From Alphaproteobacteria bacterium (GTDB lineage Bacteria; Pseudomonadota; Alphaproteobacteria; Micropepsales; Micropepsaceae): DNA of 12,251 nt. The notes beneath the pieces are model-generated. The model saw only the letters and a program-made list of their open reading frames with translations. It was not told where the DNA came from and did not search any database. The stretch spans positions 1 to 12,251 of the forward strand of contig JAEKMB010000124.1 of the NCBI GenBank assembly GCA_019508105.1, written 5' to 3'. Made by a program: the position numbers and the translations under genes. Below, piece by piece: positions 1 to 5,642 of the stretch (positions are counted from its first letter, which is position 1; each line of letters begins with the position of its first letter).

Positions 1-513
1 TCCGGCTTCGCGCGGGTGGTGCGGGCCCAGGGTCCTGATCTTGCCGCCATCGTGGAACGCGAGCATCCCGACCTTGTCATCATCGACATGGCCCTGCCCG
101 ACCGCGACGCGCTGGAAGATATACGCGCCATCTCGTCAGGCCGGCCCATCGTGATGTTCGGGGGCACCGACGATCCCACCTTTGTCCGGGAAGCGATTGC
201 GGCCGGGGTATGCTCCTACAATCTTTCCGGCGTCGCTCTGGCCGATCTCAAACCCATCATGACCTCCGCCATCGCCCTGTTTCAGCGTTACCGGCATGTC
301 GAAACCGAACTCGCCGCCGCCAATGCGTTGCTGGACGAACGCCGCAAGCTCGAGCGGGCCAAGGCGATCCTGATGAAGGACAAGCGCATGACGGAGCCGG
401 AAGCCTATCGCTGGCTGCAGAAGAAGGCGATGAACGAAAGTCGCAAGCTGTCCCAGATCGTCGAGGATTTCGTCAGGGCGCATCAGGATGCCCAACGGGA
501 GGTCAAGCCATGA
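1..513 (+). CDS. nasT: NasT: ANTAR-domain RNA-binding regulator of nitrate assimilation (5' end cut by window)
   Basis: Cytoplasmic response-regulator-like protein that binds paired hairpins in nas leader RNA when freed from NasS. The reading frame is open from base 1, so the 170 visible residues lack roughly the first 25 of a receiver domain; the GTG at 16 is internal. A receiver core is visible (LVIIDMALPD, with the likely phosphoacceptor position Asp at visible residue 29), then a coiled linker around residues 95-115, then an ANTAR domain at about residues 115-160 carrying the ERAKAILM and EAYRWLQKKAM signatures. Its stop overlaps the nasS start by four bases (ATGA), which indicates translational coupling and matched amounts of the two proteins. 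Family knowledge: NasT is controlled by binding NasS rather than by a kinase. Its predicted target is the hairpin pair at 1864-1881 and 1910-1929. The family call is secure; only the N-terminus is unknown. Confidence 0.93.
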   Translation, partial: SGFARVVRAQGPDLAAIVEREHPDLVIIDMALPDRDALEDIRAISSGRPIVMFGGTDDPTFVREAIAAGVCSYNLSGVALADLKPIMTSAIALFQRYRHVETELAAANALLDERRKLERAKAILMKDKRMTEPEAYRWLQKKAMNESRKLSQIVEDFVRAHQDAQREVKP

Positions 514-1697
514 GCGATATTGTAAGCCTGGAGGCGCGCAAGTCCGAGCCCAGGTTGCGCATCGGCATCCTGCGGCTGACCGATTCCGCCCCCGTCATCG
601 CGGCGCAGGAATTCGGCTATTTCGCCGATGAAGGCGTGGATGTGGAGCTGATAACCGAGCCATCCTGGGCCAATATCGCCGACAAATTGTCCTTTGGTTT
701 CCTGGACGCGGCGGTCATCGTGCCGCCCCTGGCGTTTGCCATTGAACTGGGACTGCGCGGCATCAGCCAGCCCTTGATCGTGCCCTGTGGCATTTCACTG
801 GGCGGCAATACCGTGACCTTGGAGCGGGGGTTGGCGGCGCGGGTTCGCGATGCCGCGCAGAGCCTGTCCATGGCCGAGGCGCTCGCCGCCCAGATCCGCA
901 GGCGCGAGGCTCCTTTGCCGCTGGGAATCGTGCACGCCTATTCCACCCACAATCTGCTGCTGCGCTACTGGCTGGCGAGCGGCGGCATAGATCTCGCCCG
1001 GGCGGTGAAATTCACCGTGGTGCCGCCCGCACGCGCGGTGGAAGCGTTGGCCAGCGGCCAGATCGCCGGCTTCTGCGCCGGCGCGCCCTGGGGCGAAGTG
1101 GCGGCCCGCGCCGCGGTGGGCACGACCGTGGCCACTTCCGACGATATCTGGCGCAACGCGCCAGAAAAGGCTTTTGCCGTGCGCAGGCGCTGGGCCGATG
1201 ACAATCCCGATCTCCTGAAAGGCGCGATCCGCGCCCTATTGCGCGCGGCTCAATTCTGCGACGCACCGGAAAATGCCTCCTACAGCGCCGCGCTGCTGTC
1301 GCGGCATAGATACCTGGACACAGACAGCCATGCCATTCTCGCCTCGCTGCCGGGCGGCGCGGTCACGTCGCAAAATCTGTCGCGCTTCTGGCGCCATGCC
1401 GCCACCTTCCCCTGGCGCAGCCATGCCGGCTGGTTCCTCCAGCAAATGGCCCGTTGGAACCTGATTGATGATGGCCAAGATCACGCCGCGCTGGCGGCAA
1501 GGGTCTATCGCCCCGACATCTACCGCAGCGTGGCCGGGGCGATGGGGTTGGCTGTGCCCCTGGCGGACAGCAAGGCGGAAGGCGGCCATGACAAGGGCTG
1601 GATGCTGGACGCTGTTCCGCGCCCCATCGCGATGGGTCCAGACCTGTTCTGCGACGGTACGGTCTTCCAGGACGAGGCGGCCCCAGCCGCCCAATAG
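510..1697 (+). CDS. nasS: NasS: cytoplasmic nitrate/nitrite-sensing protein, NrtA/CmpA-type fold
   Basis: A 395-residue protein related to the periplasmic nitrate-binding proteins NrtA/CmpA. The N-terminus is MSDIVSLEARKSEPRLRIGI with no signal peptide, so it should stay in the cytoplasm, as expected for NasS. Binding-protein features seen are LRIGILRLTDSAPVIAAQEFGYF at the start of lobe one, DVELITEPSWANIADKL, and FLDAAVIVPPLAFAIELGL. I chose the ATG at 510 because GGGAGG at 497-502 lies seven bases upstream, it overlaps the nasT stop, and the family homology begins there; an upstream extension of the frame to 210 lies inside nasT. Family knowledge: NasS holds NasT inactive without nitrate or nitrite and releases it on ligand binding. 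The TAG at 1695-1697 is followed by the long untranslated leader of the next gene. Confidence 0.92.
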   Translation: MSDIVSLEARKSEPRLRIGILRLTDSAPVIAAQEFGYFADEGVDVELITEPSWANIADKLSFGFLDAAVIVPPLAFAIELGLRGISQPLIVPCGISLGGNTVTLERGLAARVRDAAQSLSMAEALAAQIRRREAPLPLGIVHAYSTHNLLLRYWLASGGIDLARAVKFTVVPPARAVEALASGQIAGFCAGAPWGEVAARAAVGTTVATSDDIWRNAPEKAFAVRRRWADDNPDLLKGAIRALLRAAQFCDAPENASYSAALLSRHRYLDTDSHAILASLPGGAVTSQNLSRFWRHAATFPWRSHAGWFLQQMARWNLIDDGQDHAALAARVYRPDIYRSVAGAMGLAVPLADSKAEGGHDKGWMLDAVPRPIAMGPDLFCDGTVFQDEAAPAAQ

Positions 1698-1846: not shown

Positions 1847-1869
1847 GGGCCGAGTCCCGGGACGGGCCC
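1847..1869 (+). promoter_or_regulatory. Alternative RNA stem that competes with ANTAR hairpin P1
   Basis: GGGCC (1847-1851) can pair with GGCCC (1865-1869), and inside it GTC (1854-1856) with GAC (1861-1863) around a CCGG loop; GTCCCGGGAC at 1854-1863 is a perfect DNA palindrome. Its 3' arm is the 5' arm of hairpin P1, so the two cannot form together. It may act as an off-state partner of P1. Seen by base pairing only; no folding energy was computed. Confidence 0.5.
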
Positions 1870-1881
1870 AAGGGCGGGCCC
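1864..1881 (+). promoter_or_regulatory. ANTAR-target hairpin P1, hexaloop AAGGGC
   Basis: GGGCCC (1864-1869) pairs with GGGCCC (1876-1881) around the six-base loop AAGGGC (1870-1875). The loop has A at position 1 and G at position 4, the conserved bases recognised by ANTAR proteins such as EutV and NasR in paired hairpins. It lies 28 bases before a second hairpin of the same design and directly downstream of a nasT gene. The stem is six G-C pairs. Confidence 0.75.
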
Positions 1882-1909: not shown

Positions 1910-1929
1910 GCGAACCAATGGCGGTTCGC
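1910..1929 (+). promoter_or_regulatory. ANTAR-target hairpin P2, hexaloop AATGGC
   Basis: GCGAACC (1910-1916) pairs perfectly with GGTTCGC (1923-1929) around the six-base loop AATGGC (1917-1922), again with A at position 1 and G at position 4. Both loops read AANGGC. Two such hairpins in tandem are the dual-hairpin ANTAR motif. The 3' arm shares bases 1926-1929 with the helix that covers the narK start, so forming P2 should free that start. Confidence 0.8.
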
Positions 1930-1963
1930 ATGTGGCGCTGATGGCGCCCAGCGAGCCATGCGA
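1926..1963 (+). promoter_or_regulatory. Start-sequestering helix, mutually exclusive with P2
   Basis: TCGCATG (1926-1932) pairs perfectly with CATGCGA (1957-1963), where 1963 is the A of the narK ATG. Inside, CGCTG (1936-1940) pairs with CAGCG (1949-1953) around an eight-base loop, with a 3x3 internal loop between the two stems. The weak Shine-Dalgarno-like AGCGAG (1950-1955) lies mostly within this structure. An inner alternative, GGCGC/GCGCC (1934-1938/1944-1948), is also possible. No run of T follows, so it is not a standard Rho-independent terminator. Inference: it blocks ribosome entry until NasT stabilises P2. Confidence 0.6.
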
Positions 1964-3168
1964 TGAAAACTGCTTTCCTGAAGTCCGGGCACCTCCCCAC
2001 CCTCATCTCCTGCTTCCTGTATTTCGATCTCAGCTTCGCCGTCTGGGTCCTGCTTGGACCGCTGGCGGTGCTCATCGCCCCTGACCTGCACCTCAACGCA
2101 GGTGAAAAAGGCCTGATGGTGGCCGTGCCTGTTCTGGCCGGCGCGCTGCTGCGCTTCCTCAATGGCATCTTGGTTGGCCAGTGGAAGCCCCGCAATGTCG
2201 GCCTGGTCATGCAGTTGGTCGTGATCGGCGGTTTGCTGACCGCCTGGCTGGTCGGTATCCATAGCCTGCCGCAGGTCCTGATGCTGGGCGTGGTGCTGGG
2301 AGTGGCGGGCGCAAGCTTCGCCATCGCGCTGCCGATGGTGTCCTACTGGTATCCGCCGGAACACCAAGGCACCGCGCTGGGCCTTGCTGGCGCCGGCAAT
2401 TCCGGCACCGTTTTCGCCTCGCTCTTCGCACCGCTCCTGGCGGTGGCGCTGGGCTGGCGCAACGTCCTGGGTCTCGCCGCGCTGCCGCTGATCGCCGTCT
2501 TCATCGTGTTTGCGATTTCGGCCAAAAACAGCCCCAACTGCCCTCCGAAGAAAAACATGGCCGACTATGCCCGCCTGCTGAAGCAGACCGATAGCTGGTG
2601 GCTTATGTTCTTCTATGCCGTCAGCTTCGGCGGCTTTGTCGGCCTGTCGTCCTTCCTGCCCATCTACTTCCATGACCAGTACAAGCTGTCGCCCGTGACG
2701 GCGGGTTATTTCACCGCTGCCTGCGTGTTCGCCGGGTCCTTCGCCCGTCCGTTCGGGGGATATCTGGCCGACCGCATCGGCGGCACGCGCGCCTTGTCGG
2801 TGGTCTATGCCACGGTGGCGGCGATCCTGTTCGTCGTCAGTCAGAGCAACCTGCCTGCGGTCGCCACGCTCGCCGTGTTCATCGTCTGCATGGCGACGTT
2901 GGGCATGGGCAATGGCGCGGTCTTCCAGCTGGTGCCGCAGCGCTTCGTTCGCGATGTCGGTCTGATGACCGGGCTAGTGGGCATGACCGGCGGCATTGGC
3001 GGCTTCTATCTGGCCGCGAGCCTGGGCTATGCCAAGCAGTTCACCGGCAGCTACAGCTTCGGCTTTGCCCTCTTCGCCGCGATGGCGATGGCCGCCTGGG
3101 CCGGCATCTCGACCGTGCGGCTGCGCTGGCGGCGCGAGGCATCCGGCCTCGCCACCGTGCGCATTTAA
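1963..3168 (+). CDS. narK: NarK/NasA-type nitrate/nitrite transporter (MFS)
   Basis: A 401-residue major-facilitator protein in the inner membrane, with about 12 hydrophobic segments, that should bring nitrate in and may exchange it for nitrite or take protons. Family marks: the N-terminus MKTAFLKSGHLPTL..FLYFDLSFAVWVLLGPL; Arg64 in ALLRFLNG and Arg262 in FARPFGGYLADRIGG, which I match to the two substrate-binding arginines of E. coli NarK; and the nitrate signatures GLAGAGNSG (140-148) and GMGNGAVFQLVPQRF (around Asn317). The ATG at 1963 gives the usual family N-terminus and is preceded seven bases upstream only by a weak AGCGAG. That weak site lies within the leader structures, so initiation probably depends on RNA folding. 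nirB follows 11 bases after the stop. Some clusters call this gene nasA. It is a single porter, not a fused NarK1-NarK2 form. Confidence 0.93.
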   Translation: MKTAFLKSGHLPTLISCFLYFDLSFAVWVLLGPLAVLIAPDLHLNAGEKGLMVAVPVLAGALLRFLNGILVGQWKPRNVGLVMQLVVIGGLLTAWLVGIHSLPQVLMLGVVLGVAGASFAIALPMVSYWYPPEHQGTALGLAGAGNSGTVFASLFAPLLAVALGWRNVLGLAALPLIAVFIVFAISAKNSPNCPPKKNMADYARLLKQTDSWWLMFFYAVSFGGFVGLSSFLPIYFHDQYKLSPVTAGYFTAACVFAGSFARPFGGYLADRIGGTRALSVVYATVAAILFVVSQSNLPAVATLAVFIVCMATLGMGNGAVFQLVPQRFVRDVGLMTGLVGMTGGIGGFYLAASLGYAKQFTGSYSFGFALFAAMAMAAWAGISTVRLRWRREASGLATVRI

Positions 3169-3179: not shown

Positions 3180-5642
3180 ATGAACATGGTCGCCGATCCC
3201 CGCGAACACCTGGTCGTCATAGGCAACGGCATGGCGGGCATGCGGACGGTGGAGGAACTGCTCAAGCTGGACAATGGCCGGCGCTTTCGCATCACCGTGT
3301 TCGGCGCGGAGCCGCACGTCAATTACAACCGCATCATGCTGTCCAGCGTTCTGGCCGGCGATAAAGCCGTGGACGACATCGTCATCAACAGCCGTGAATG
3401 GTACGACGAAAACGACATCACGCTTGTCACCGGGGATGCCGTGACCCGCATAGATCGCGGGGATGGCACTGTCACCTCCGCCAGCGGTCATAGCGTGCGC
3501 TATGACCGTTTGCTGATCGCCACCGGCTCCAGGCCGGTGGCTCCGCCGATTCCGGGCCTGGGTCTGCCTGGCGTATGCGCCTTCCGCGATATCGCCGATG
3601 TCGACAAGATGCTGGCGGCCGCAAAGGTGCACAAGCGCGCAGTGGTGATTGGCGGCGGCCTGCTGGGGCTGGAAGCGGCCTGGGGTCTCAAACAGCGCGG
3701 CATGTCAGTGGCGCTGGTGCACCTGATGCCGACCTTGATGGAACGCCAGCTGGACGCCGCGGCCGGTCAGATGCTGCAGCGCGACCTCGACCGGCGTGGC
3801 ATCGCCTTCTTCACCGACGGCCAGACCGAGGAAATTACCGGCACCGAGCGTGCCGAGGGCGTGCAATTGGCCGATGGCCGCTTTGTGCCGGCTGACCTGG
3901 TGGTTTTGGCCATCGGCATCCGTCCCAATATCGAGCTGGCCAAGGCGGCGCAGCTCGAAGTCAACCGGGGCATCGTGGTGACCGACGACATGCGCACATC
4001 CGATCCGGCCGTCTTTTCGGTCGGGGAATGCGTGGAACATCGCGGCAATGTCTTCGGCCTGGTGGCACCGATTTGGGATCAGGCCAAGGTCTGCGCTGCT
4101 CAGCTGGCGGGAGACGCAGAGGCCCTGTTCGCTTCCAAGGCGCTGGCCACAAGTCTCAAGATCACCGGCGTGGACGTTTTCTCCGCCGGCGCGCTGATGG
4201 CGGCCGACGAAAGCGATGACGAAATCACCCTGCGCGACGATTCCCGCGGCCTCTACAAGAAGATCGTGCTGCGCGATGGCAAGCTGGTGGGCGCTGTGCT
4301 GTATGGCGATGTCGGTGACGGCCAATGGTACTTGCAATTGATGCGCGACAAGCAAGATGTCAGCGCGTTGCGCGAGCGTCTGGTGTTCGGCCGCGCCTTT
4401 GCGGAAACCGGAAGCGGCAAACCCGCCGGCACCGATTTCGCAGCCATGCCGGATGACACCCAGATCTGCGGCTGCAATGGCGTCTGCAAGGGCGTCATCG
4501 TTTCGGCCATCCAGGACAAGAAGCTCACCTCGCTATCCGAAGTGCGCGCCCATACCAAGGCGTCGGCGTCCTGCGGCCAGTGCACCGGACAGGTCGAGGG
4601 CCTCTTGGCCTTCGCCGCCGGTGTCGATGCCAAGGCGGTCAAGAAAACCATGTGCGATTGCACGATGGCGAGCCACGACGAAGTGCGGGCCGCCATTGTT
4701 GCGGACAGACTGAAGACCATGGACAGCGTCCGCCACGCCTTCGACTGGAAGAAGCCCGAAGGCTGCCACAAGTGCCGCCCGGCGCTGAACTACTACCTGC
4801 TCTGCGCCTGGCCGGATGAATACCACGACGACGCCCAGTCGCGTTTCGTCAACGAGCGGGTACACGCCAACATCCAGAAGGACGGCACCTACAGCGTGAT
4901 CCCGCGCATGTGGGGCGGTCTCACGACCCCGGCGGAATTGCACGCCATCGCCAGCGTGGCGGAAAAGTTCAACATCCCGACTGTCAAGGTGACGGGCGGA
5001 CAGCGCATCGACCTTCTGGGTGTGAGAAAGGATGATCTGCCGGGCGTATGGAACGAACTGGGCAAGGCCGGCATGGTCAGCGGCCACGCCTATGCCAAGG
5101 GTCTGCGCACGGTGAAGACCTGCGTGGGCAGCGAATGGTGCCGCTTCGGCACCCAGGACTCCACTGGGCTGGGCGTGAAGCTGGAAAAGATGTGCTGGGG
5201 ATCCTGGACGCCGCACAAGGTCAAGTTCGCCGTCTCCGGCTGCCCGCGCAATTGTGCCGAGGCCACCATCAAGGACCTGGGCGTGGTCTGCGTGGAAGCA
5301 GGCTATGACCTTCTGGTCGGCGGCAATGGCGGCATTGATGTGCGGGTCACCGATCCCCTTGTGCGGGTGGCGACGGAAGCCGAGGTGCTGGAATATGCCG
5401 GCGCCTTCATGCAGATCTACCGGGAAGAGGCGCATTATCTGGAACGCACCGCGCCCTGGATCGCGCGCGTCGGCATCGATTATGTGAAGAAGCGGCTGGT
5501 GGAAGATGCCGAAGGCCGCGCAGCGCTGCATGCGCGCTTCCTGCATTCCCAGCGTTTTGCCCAAATCGATCCCTGGACCGAACGCGTGATGGGCGCCCAA
5601 GCCCATGAATTCGCAGCCCTGCCCGAAATGGCGGCGGGATGA
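3180..5642 (+). CDS. nirB: NirB: NADH-dependent assimilatory nitrite reductase, large subunit
   Basis: An 820-residue cytoplasmic flavoprotein that passes electrons from NADH through FAD and iron-sulfur centres to siroheme, reducing nitrite to ammonium. Domains in order: FAD-binding (VVIGNGMAG near residues 11-19), NAD-binding (AVVIGGGLLGLEAAWGL from residue 154), two successive BFD-like cysteine quartets (C430/C432/C465/C468 and C492/C494/C529/C532), a ferredoxin-like half domain near 575-640, and the siroheme/[4Fe-4S] site C648-x5-C654 and C688-x3-C692. Length and order match the roughly 850-residue NirB of E. coli, with no truncation. The stop overlaps the nirD ATG, expected for the two subunits of one enzyme. 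In Paracoccus the same protein (NasB) also supplies electrons for nitrate reduction, which may apply here because no other NADH-oxidising partner is present. Confidence 0.96.
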   Translation: MNMVADPREHLVVIGNGMAGMRTVEELLKLDNGRRFRITVFGAEPHVNYNRIMLSSVLAGDKAVDDIVINSREWYDENDITLVTGDAVTRIDRGDGTVTSASGHSVRYDRLLIATGSRPVAPPIPGLGLPGVCAFRDIADVDKMLAAAKVHKRAVVIGGGLLGLEAAWGLKQRGMSVALVHLMPTLMERQLDAAAGQMLQRDLDRRGIAFFTDGQTEEITGTERAEGVQLADGRFVPADLVVLAIGIRPNIELAKAAQLEVNRGIVVTDDMRTSDPAVFSVGECVEHRGNVFGLVAPIWDQAKVCAAQLAGDAEALFASKALATSLKITGVDVFSAGALMAADESDDEITLRDDSRGLYKKIVLRDGKLVGAVLYGDVGDGQWYLQLMRDKQDVSALRERLVFGRAFAETGSGKPAGTDFAAMPDDTQICGCNGVCKGVIVSAIQDKKLTSLSEVRAHTKASASCGQCTGQVEGLLAFAAGVDAKAVKKTMCDCTMASHDEVRAAIVADRLKTMDSVRHAFDWKKPEGCHKCRPALNYYLLCAWPDEYHDDAQSRFVNERVHANIQKDGTYSVIPRMWGGLTTPAELHAIASVAEKFNIPTVKVTGGQRIDLLGVRKDDLPGVWNELGKAGMVSGHAYAKGLRTVKTCVGSEWCRFGTQDSTGLGVKLEKMCWGSWTPHKVKFAVSGCPRNCAEATIKDLGVVCVEAGYDLLVGGNGGIDVRVTDPLVRVATEAEVLEYAGAFMQIYREEAHYLERTAPWIARVGIDYVKKRLVEDAEGRAALHARFLHSQRFAQIDPWTERVMGAQAHEFAALPEMAAG

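Follow-up and report, generated by a model that had tools for sequence, protein, structure and literature searches.

A probable ANTAR-responsive two-state leader upstream of the nitrate transporter gene narK in Alphaproteobacteria

Gene order and leader hairpins at the narK locus

The window, i.e., the whole 12,251-nt stretch of alphaproteobacterial DNA analyzed here, derives from a draft genome assembly (62% complete) and encodes NasT and a NasS-like sensor directly upstream of the narK leader, which spans 265 bases after the nasS-like gene (Table 1). ORFs following nirB were assigned by Pfam to a Rieske protein in the nirD position, a molybdopterin nitrate reductase, and HemD-like and MobA-like proteins, and a further ORF resembled Alginate_exp weakly, with a Pfam score under the family cut-off. 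No leader match was returned up to an E-value of 10 among 4227 Rfam families, and no sigma-70 promoter was found in 1690-2060. With the sigma-54 consensus, sites scoring at least 11 with both GG and GC were located upstream of P1 in 10 of the 16 leaders compared below, for example approximately 155 bases before the start in L032; at that score, none occurred in the window, L008, L003, L007, L042, or L043.

Table 1. Positions of genes, hairpins and helix arms in the window.
Feature	Position	Strand	Evidence or remark
nasT, 5' end cut by contig end	1..513	+	Pfam ANTAR (PF03861) E 8.8e-15, Response_reg E 4.4e-7; ORF open at 5' end
nasS-like nitrate sensor gene, NMT1_2 family	510..1697	+	Pfam NMT1_2 E 4.3e-76; ATG overlaps nasT stop
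P1 hairpin, arms GGGCCC and GGGCCC, hexaloop AAGGGC (A1 and G4)	1864..1881	+	Pair probability 0.90-0.91 in 1840-2000
P2 hairpin, arms GCGAACC and GGUUCGC, hexaloop AAUGGC (A1 and G4)	1910..1929	+	Proposed ON state; 98.8% of 84 cells paired (12 distinct sequences)
ALT 5' arm, GGUUCGC	1923..1929	+	Complete P2 3' arm; folding, alignment
5' arm of the earlier note's helix	1926..1932	+	Real complementarity; neither favored nor conserved
Inner hairpin GGCGC/GCGCC enclosed by ALT	1934..1948	+	Probability 0.98-0.99
ALT 3' arm, GCGAGCC	1951..1957	+	Holds weak SD core GAG (1953-1955), 7 nt between GAG and ATG
3' arm of the earlier note's helix	1957..1963	+	Real complementarity; neither favored nor conserved
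narK, MFS nitrate/nitrite transporter	1963..3168	+	Pfam MFS_1 E 2.2e-39; relatives with 70-84% identity align from residue 1
nirB, assimilatory nitrite reductase large subunit	3180..5642	+	Pfam NIR_SIR, Pyr_redox_2, Fer2_BFD

The leader carries the signature of an ANTAR target, namely tandem hairpins (P1 and P2) whose six-base loops start with A and have G as the fourth base, and an ANTAR-domain protein is encoded at 1-513 of the window itself. In the published account, A1/G4 six-base loops are the recognition signature of ANTAR proteins (PMC3369931). On the minus strand, P2 (1909-1930) resembles a weak terminator with the tail GGTTTTCGAT, one such site being found against a mean of 0.6 in shuffles. 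L039 has an extra hexaloop-like hairpin (loop AAAGGC) between P1 and P2 (2852-2948). The possibility of a conserved upstream ORF with its start codon in the P2 loop was rejected, as frames and lengths vary among relatives and L167 has no ATG there.

Two exclusive partners for the P2 3' arm

The minimum-energy fold pairs 1923-1929 with 1951-1957, forming a helix (ALT) whose pair probabilities in 1840-2000 are 0.88-0.96, versus 0.03 for P2 without protein. P2 and ALT are mutually exclusive, since 1923-1929 is common to both. The SD arm of ALT resembles a copy of the P2 5' arm (GCGAGCC versus GCGRRCC in most leaders), which fits the need of a switch with two partners for one strand. When P2 was forced, the mean SD unpaired probability in the window rose from 0.01 to 0.36. 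For the window alone, a 7/7 match anywhere between P2 and the start codon has a shuffle p of 0.12; hence such a match is not rare by itself, and the strength of the case lies in its recurrence across relatives.

ALT lies three bases upstream of a helix put forward in an earlier note on this DNA, according to which P2 competes with a structure hiding the narK start codon. The complementarity described there is real: TCGCATG (1926-1932) is the exact reverse complement of CATGCGA (1957-1963), the match reaches the A of the ATG at 1963, four bases of the 5' arm (1926-1929) are common to P2, and an inner stem over much of AGCGAG forms with this helix when 1926-1965 is folded alone. Its perfect 7 bp in the window and a covariation score matched by 6 of 500 shuffles favor a function of this helix as the OFF state. 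However, its pair probabilities in 1840-2000 are 0.004-0.005 (approximately 0.5% occupancy), a fold constrained to contain it lies 3.4 kcal/mol above the minimum (-64.0 versus -67.4 kcal/mol, 1840-2000), and it is paired in 67.1% of 82 cells across 12 distinct sequences (window included), with two of the seven positions paired in just 4/12 and 5/12 sequences. On its low probability and poor conservation the start-codon helix was rejected as the main competitor of P2, and we consider it most improbable as a functional OFF state. The conserved helix leaves the start codon out, and the SD segment 1951-1957 is the conserved partner of the P2 3' arm. The linker UUAUCG (1897-1902 region) pairs with CGAUGA over the start codon (1961-1966) in the lowest-energy fold predicted for the window.

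Recurrence of the alternative helix in related leaders

We compared 16 leaders comprising 15 distinct P2-to-start sequences (the window, L003, L005-L008, L032, L034, L037-L039, L042, L043, L163, L164, and L167). Thirteen were found via the NarK protein and represent 12 distinct sequences, window included; leaders present twice (L003/L033, L004/L032, L005/L035, and L006/L036) were each counted once, while L009 and L111, in which the narK start is missing, were left out. Relatives of NasT and NasS were encoded upstream in 15 of the 16 within the examined stretches, and the genome of L034 has an ANTAR gene with a NasS relative elsewhere, on contig C161. L038 has an extra ORF (1877-2680) between the NasS relative and the leader.

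Across the 12 distinct sequences, ALT was paired in 97.6% of 84 cells, versus 30-44% when the partner was slid by 1-3 columns. The leader's own P2 arm pairs at the SD in 7/7 positions in 14 leaders and in 6/7 in the other two, and the SD arm ends 4-12 nt before the start in all 16. As a null, 12 of 558 start regions of other long ORFs, whose starts were uncurated, reached 7/7 with GGUUCGC at the SD position. The ALT arms enclose a single hairpin in six leaders and two hairpins in ten. For nine distinct two-hairpin leaders, the whole OFF fold was paired in 96.9% of 162 cells (24-39% when slid) and none of 500 shuffles reached its pairing or its covariation score; the inner hairpin of L034, judged by eye to be misplaced by one base in the MAFFT alignment, was kept so. 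Four pairs of this fold show both-sided changes, three in the inner hairpins and one in ALT (C-G to U-A, L038), alongside several one-sided ALT changes. With just one both-sided change in ALT itself, its direct covariation is weak, and ALT alone did not exceed shuffles (85/500).

Model R1, built from P1-P2 alone and blind to downstream sequence, had 23 matches, spread over 22 genomes, at E 0.1 among 195 relatives; of 96 genomes of the family, 13 had a match at E 0.01, which in 10 of these scored at least 44 bits. Three of the ten strong matches (L163, L164, and L167) precede nirB with no narK between, and all keep ALT at 7/7, including L167, whose two arms, GGCUCGU and GCGAGUU, are each unlike those of the window. 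In L163 (1547-1670), a 13-codon ORF begins at the start codon that follows the SD arm, and its stop overlaps the nirB start, so that nirB would be reached by coupling, and in L164 a second in-frame ATG touches the SD arm; the starts of these two leaders are therefore uncertain. The 13-codon ORF begins MTAAF versus MKTAF in the window narK, as if left by deletion. Model R2, built from two-hairpin leaders only, recovered all six one-hairpin leaders, the window at E 1.7e-6 and the remaining five at E 7.8e-6 or better. Over 378 phylum genomes, R1 returned the window and one weak match (E 0.01), and the few strong matches of both models over the class indicate a phylogenetically narrow design. Weak R1 or R2 matches with no NasT, NasS, NarK, NirB, NirD, or NasA relative nearby (L146-L159, L168-L177, and L184-L187) were left out; by eye, L147 resembles a genuine terminator-type leader of another gene. 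Leader DNA gave one match in plasmids, 29 bases in a Streptomyces plasmid, which was taken as spurious.

In L042 and L043, from Rhodanobacter, a genus of the Gammaproteobacteria, gene order and leader are as in the alphaproteobacterial loci, and this suggests horizontal transfer.

SD strength was compared using duplex energies against the anti-SD sequence. The median was -2.8 kcal/mol for window-type leaders (group A) versus -5.6 kcal/mol for a further 69 narK genes (Mann-Whitney p 4e-5, with relatedness left out of account) and -2.5 kcal/mol in the 558 uncurated start regions. Hence, the group A SD is weak for narK and not unusual otherwise. This bears on whether the pairing is a by-product, with GCGAGCC conserved as a ribosome-binding sequence only and its match to P2 due to chance in GC-rich DNA. 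Such a reading can draw on the ordinary SD strength relative to the uncurated starts, on the little covariation and unexceeded shuffles of ALT, and on per-sequence shuffle p values of approximately 0.1 for a match anywhere (0.07-0.18, with 0.69 in L034 and 0.85 in L038, which has an equal 6/7 match also elsewhere). In contrast, GCGAG is a poor SD next to the 69 other narK genes, sliding the partner lowers the pairing to less than half, L167 and L038 have changed both arms and keep 7/7 and 6/7, respectively, and the inner sequence varies between one and two hairpins while the closing helix is constant. As the sequences are related, these counts are not independent; taken together, we consider a by-product decidedly unlikely.

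Terminator-type leaders as controls

In the 16 leaders, the longest T run was 1-3 in the 15 nt after the best-paired segment and 2-5 from P2 to ATG+30; over the latter interval the window has a longest run of 3, bearing out the observation in the earlier note that no T run follows. Runs of 4-5 (L007, L034, and L167) begin within the gene, 12 nt into it and 17-19 nt past the ALT arm, and no plus-strand terminator-like site was found at 1690-2060. The window leader thus has one hallmark of an antiterminator leader, a structure overlapping and excluding P2, and lacks the other, an intrinsic terminator with a U tract.

For comparison, we scrutinized leaders downstream of NasS-like genes at 30 class loci and 4 plasmid loci. 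Two of these 34 control loci belonged to group A, one had no downstream sequence, and 13 had an A1/G4 hexaloop hairpin of 5 bp or longer that we assigned to the region preceding the target gene. A T run of at least 6 was found behind the hexaloop in 12 of the 13, the exception being L131. Control ORF starts were called mechanically; L124 and L136, in which the called start precedes the hexaloop, were both kept by eye, hexaloops inside the next ORF (L128 and L141) were not counted, and L181 has a T run of 7 without such a hexaloop. In the sphingomonad controls L178-L180, the gene that follows is narK, meaning that terminator-type leaders of this gene exist at other loci. No R2 match at E up to 1 fell on any of the 13 control leaders, the two matches at control loci (L178 and L180) being outside the leader, and the terminator-type leader L144 was matched only at E 0.063.

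These comparisons weigh on ordinary ANTAR antitermination, whereby ALT would be an intrinsic terminator without a good U tract or a terminator would lie elsewhere. Nas leaders are described as antitermination systems, an added translational level being proposed only for Paracoccus denitrificans in the relevant passages of the literature, and ALT with its inner hairpin does form a long GC-rich stem where a terminator would sit. Nevertheless, all 16 leaders are without a T run behind the hairpin, a feature that is obvious in nearly all controls, the stretch around the window leader yielded no terminator-like site on the coding strand, and the stem covers the SD close to the start codon in every leader. 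We therefore regard antitermination as an unlikely explanation. Of the translational switch suggested in the earlier note, the idea that P2 excludes a helix blocking narK initiation, which NasT would open, without a terminator is supported by the recurrence in 16 leaders, their lack of T runs behind the hairpin, and the contrast with terminator-type leaders; the particular helix named was wrong, and its start-codon arm is not conserved.

Energetic balance of the two folds and proposed mechanism

RNAalifold preferred P2 for the two-hairpin leaders and ALT for those with one hairpin. In partition functions at 30 °C, ALT was the favored state in 11 of 16 leaders, and P2 was predicted to prevail without protein in the other five (L007, L034, L037, L038, and L039). 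At 37 °C, the long leader favored ALT in 10/16 and P2 in 6/16, L008 joining the latter by 0.2 kcal/mol, while with P2-to-start only, ALT was favored in 12, L007, L037, and L039 lay within 0.4, and L038 favored P2 by 7.7 kcal/mol. Among the computational results, these predictions weigh most against default OFF being the state of every leader. Forcing P2 raised mean SD unpairedness by at least 0.18 in 10 of the 11 leaders with ALT as the free state; the SD of L167 was just 1% unpaired, barely changed.

Given two exclusive folds that recur in relatives, the nitrate-responsive protein probably acts by uncovering the SD, not by antitermination. Folding and alignment point to the narK leader as a probable ANTAR-responsive two-state RNA controlling translation initiation, in which NasT would stabilize P1/P2 and free the SD. 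We infer that NasT binds this RNA, with the following direction of control and effect on translation. Without free NasT, the P2 3' arm (1923-1929) would pair with 1951-1957 and bury the weak narK SD (OFF). Nitrate or nitrite would lead NasS to release NasT, which would bind the P1/P2 hexaloops and keep the 3' arm in P2, leaving the SD free (ON), whereupon narK, and perhaps coupled downstream genes, would be translated. Low translation may secondarily cut mRNA via Rho or decay. Blocked translation initiation is established to cause polarity in other bacteria, and an indirect transcriptional effect could accordingly be envisaged, whereby blocked initiation exposes narK mRNA to Rho and the measurable change is in mRNA; we attach low probability to this explanation. 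For the preferred reading, an experimental test is practical since Rhodanobacter strains (L042 and L043; Rhodanobacter sp. Root480 and R. fulvus Jip2) carry the leader.

Betaproteobacterial narK leaders

Seven Thauera-type narK leaders (L058, L072, L074, L084, L087, L090, and L101, of which L087 and L090 are probably one genome) have a P1 hexaloop and a P2-like hairpin approximately 100 bases before narK, and T runs in their final 70 nt are limited to 1-3. The SD UGGAG is embedded in a long predicted helix that excludes the P2-like hairpin. Together with its inner hairpin this helix is paired in 94.2% of 137 cells, the long helix itself in 91.6%; three positions are unpaired or gapped in three or four of the seven, and a single pair has both bases replaced, from A-U to G-C, in three sequences. 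The pairing was reached by 18 of 500 shuffles and the number of both-sided pairs by 444 of 500. Judged by eye, the P2-like loop is without G4 in L087 and without A1 in L074, L084, and L101. An ANTAR protein was found in four of the five Thauera-type genomes searched and none in that of L072, and the two Thauera-type ANTAR proteins scanned are NIT-ANTAR, as is NasR. These predicted folds make the Thauera-type SD-embedding leader a candidate second, weaker case, which we treat as a lead and not as a result.

Dechloromonas-type leaders (L073, L075, L078, L082, L099, and L105) have one or two hexaloop hairpins approximately 100 bases before narK, but their predicted folds show no SD-embedding helix, and T runs of 6 are likewise absent. 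L063 is a betaproteobacterial leader with a textbook terminator. A tentative reading, possible though not the one we would presume, is that natural translation-activating ANTAR switches evolved on two or more occasions in nitrate assimilation, one using NasS-NasT in Alphaproteobacteria (and Rhodanobacter) and another using a NasR-like protein in Thauera-type Betaproteobacteria, the 3' arm of an ancestral terminator having been replaced by the SD. If true, the two origins would supply a mechanism for unexplained translational nitrate control in Paracoccus.

Comparison with known ANTAR systems

In P. denitrificans, nitrate is reported to free NasT from NasS (PMC3795266). On glutamate, nas mRNA is present and Nas protein absent in this bacterium, a nasS mutant makes the protein, and Luque-Almagro 2017 proposes a translational level of NasTS control (PMC5424462). 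The leader described here makes that report of translational NasT-NasS action directly testable; the relevant passages of the 2017 paper name no direct RNA mechanism (PMC5424462). Ramesh 2012 considered that terminator-less hits might act on translation initiation, one example overlapping both RBS and start (PMC3369931), and Mehta and Ramesh 2021 describe actinobacterial ANTAR RNAs that overlap the RBS or AUG and cite mycobacterial translational repression (PMC8164766). A literature search, with most subscription journals outside its scope, gave no natural ANTAR leader activating translation by SD release among the matches listed. ANTAR regulators are known as antiterminators, with translational repression in mycobacteria, and a natural activating leader would show the output exchanged and the sensor kept. 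Riboswitches likewise swap regulatory output while keeping the sensor.

Klebsiella nasF/NasR and the nas/NasT systems of Pseudomonas, Azotobacter, and Paracoccus are described as having the same ANTAR regulator, nitrate assimilation genes, and control by a structure after the ANTAR hairpin, and A1/G4 hexaloops as in the window are described for nasF (PMC3369931, PMC3795266, and PMC5424462). Unlike the known nas leaders, in whose descriptions the competitor is a transcription terminator, the window has no T run and its competitor is the SD segment. The EutV-responsive eut leaders of Enterococcus have, by their published description, the same P1-P2 dual hairpin with P2 overlapping an alternative hairpin (PMC3369931 and PMC8934654), but there the alternative hairpin serves as an intrinsic terminator. 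ANTAR RNAs of mycobacteria and actinobacteria are portrayed as acting at the ribosome site, as is proposed for the window leader, mostly without a terminator (PMC8164766). In those accounts, however, binding represses translation because the RBS is within or next to the bound hairpins, whereas in the window binding should activate because the SD is part of the alternative helix. NmPAL is a further protein with an ANTAR domain. In the engineered NmPAL riboptoregulator, as outlined in its report, the SD is no longer obstructed and translation increases once the light receptor NmPAL has bound its aptamer (PMC11381354). That system is a synthetic design with a different sensor, of which the window leader would be a natural nitrate-responsive counterpart.
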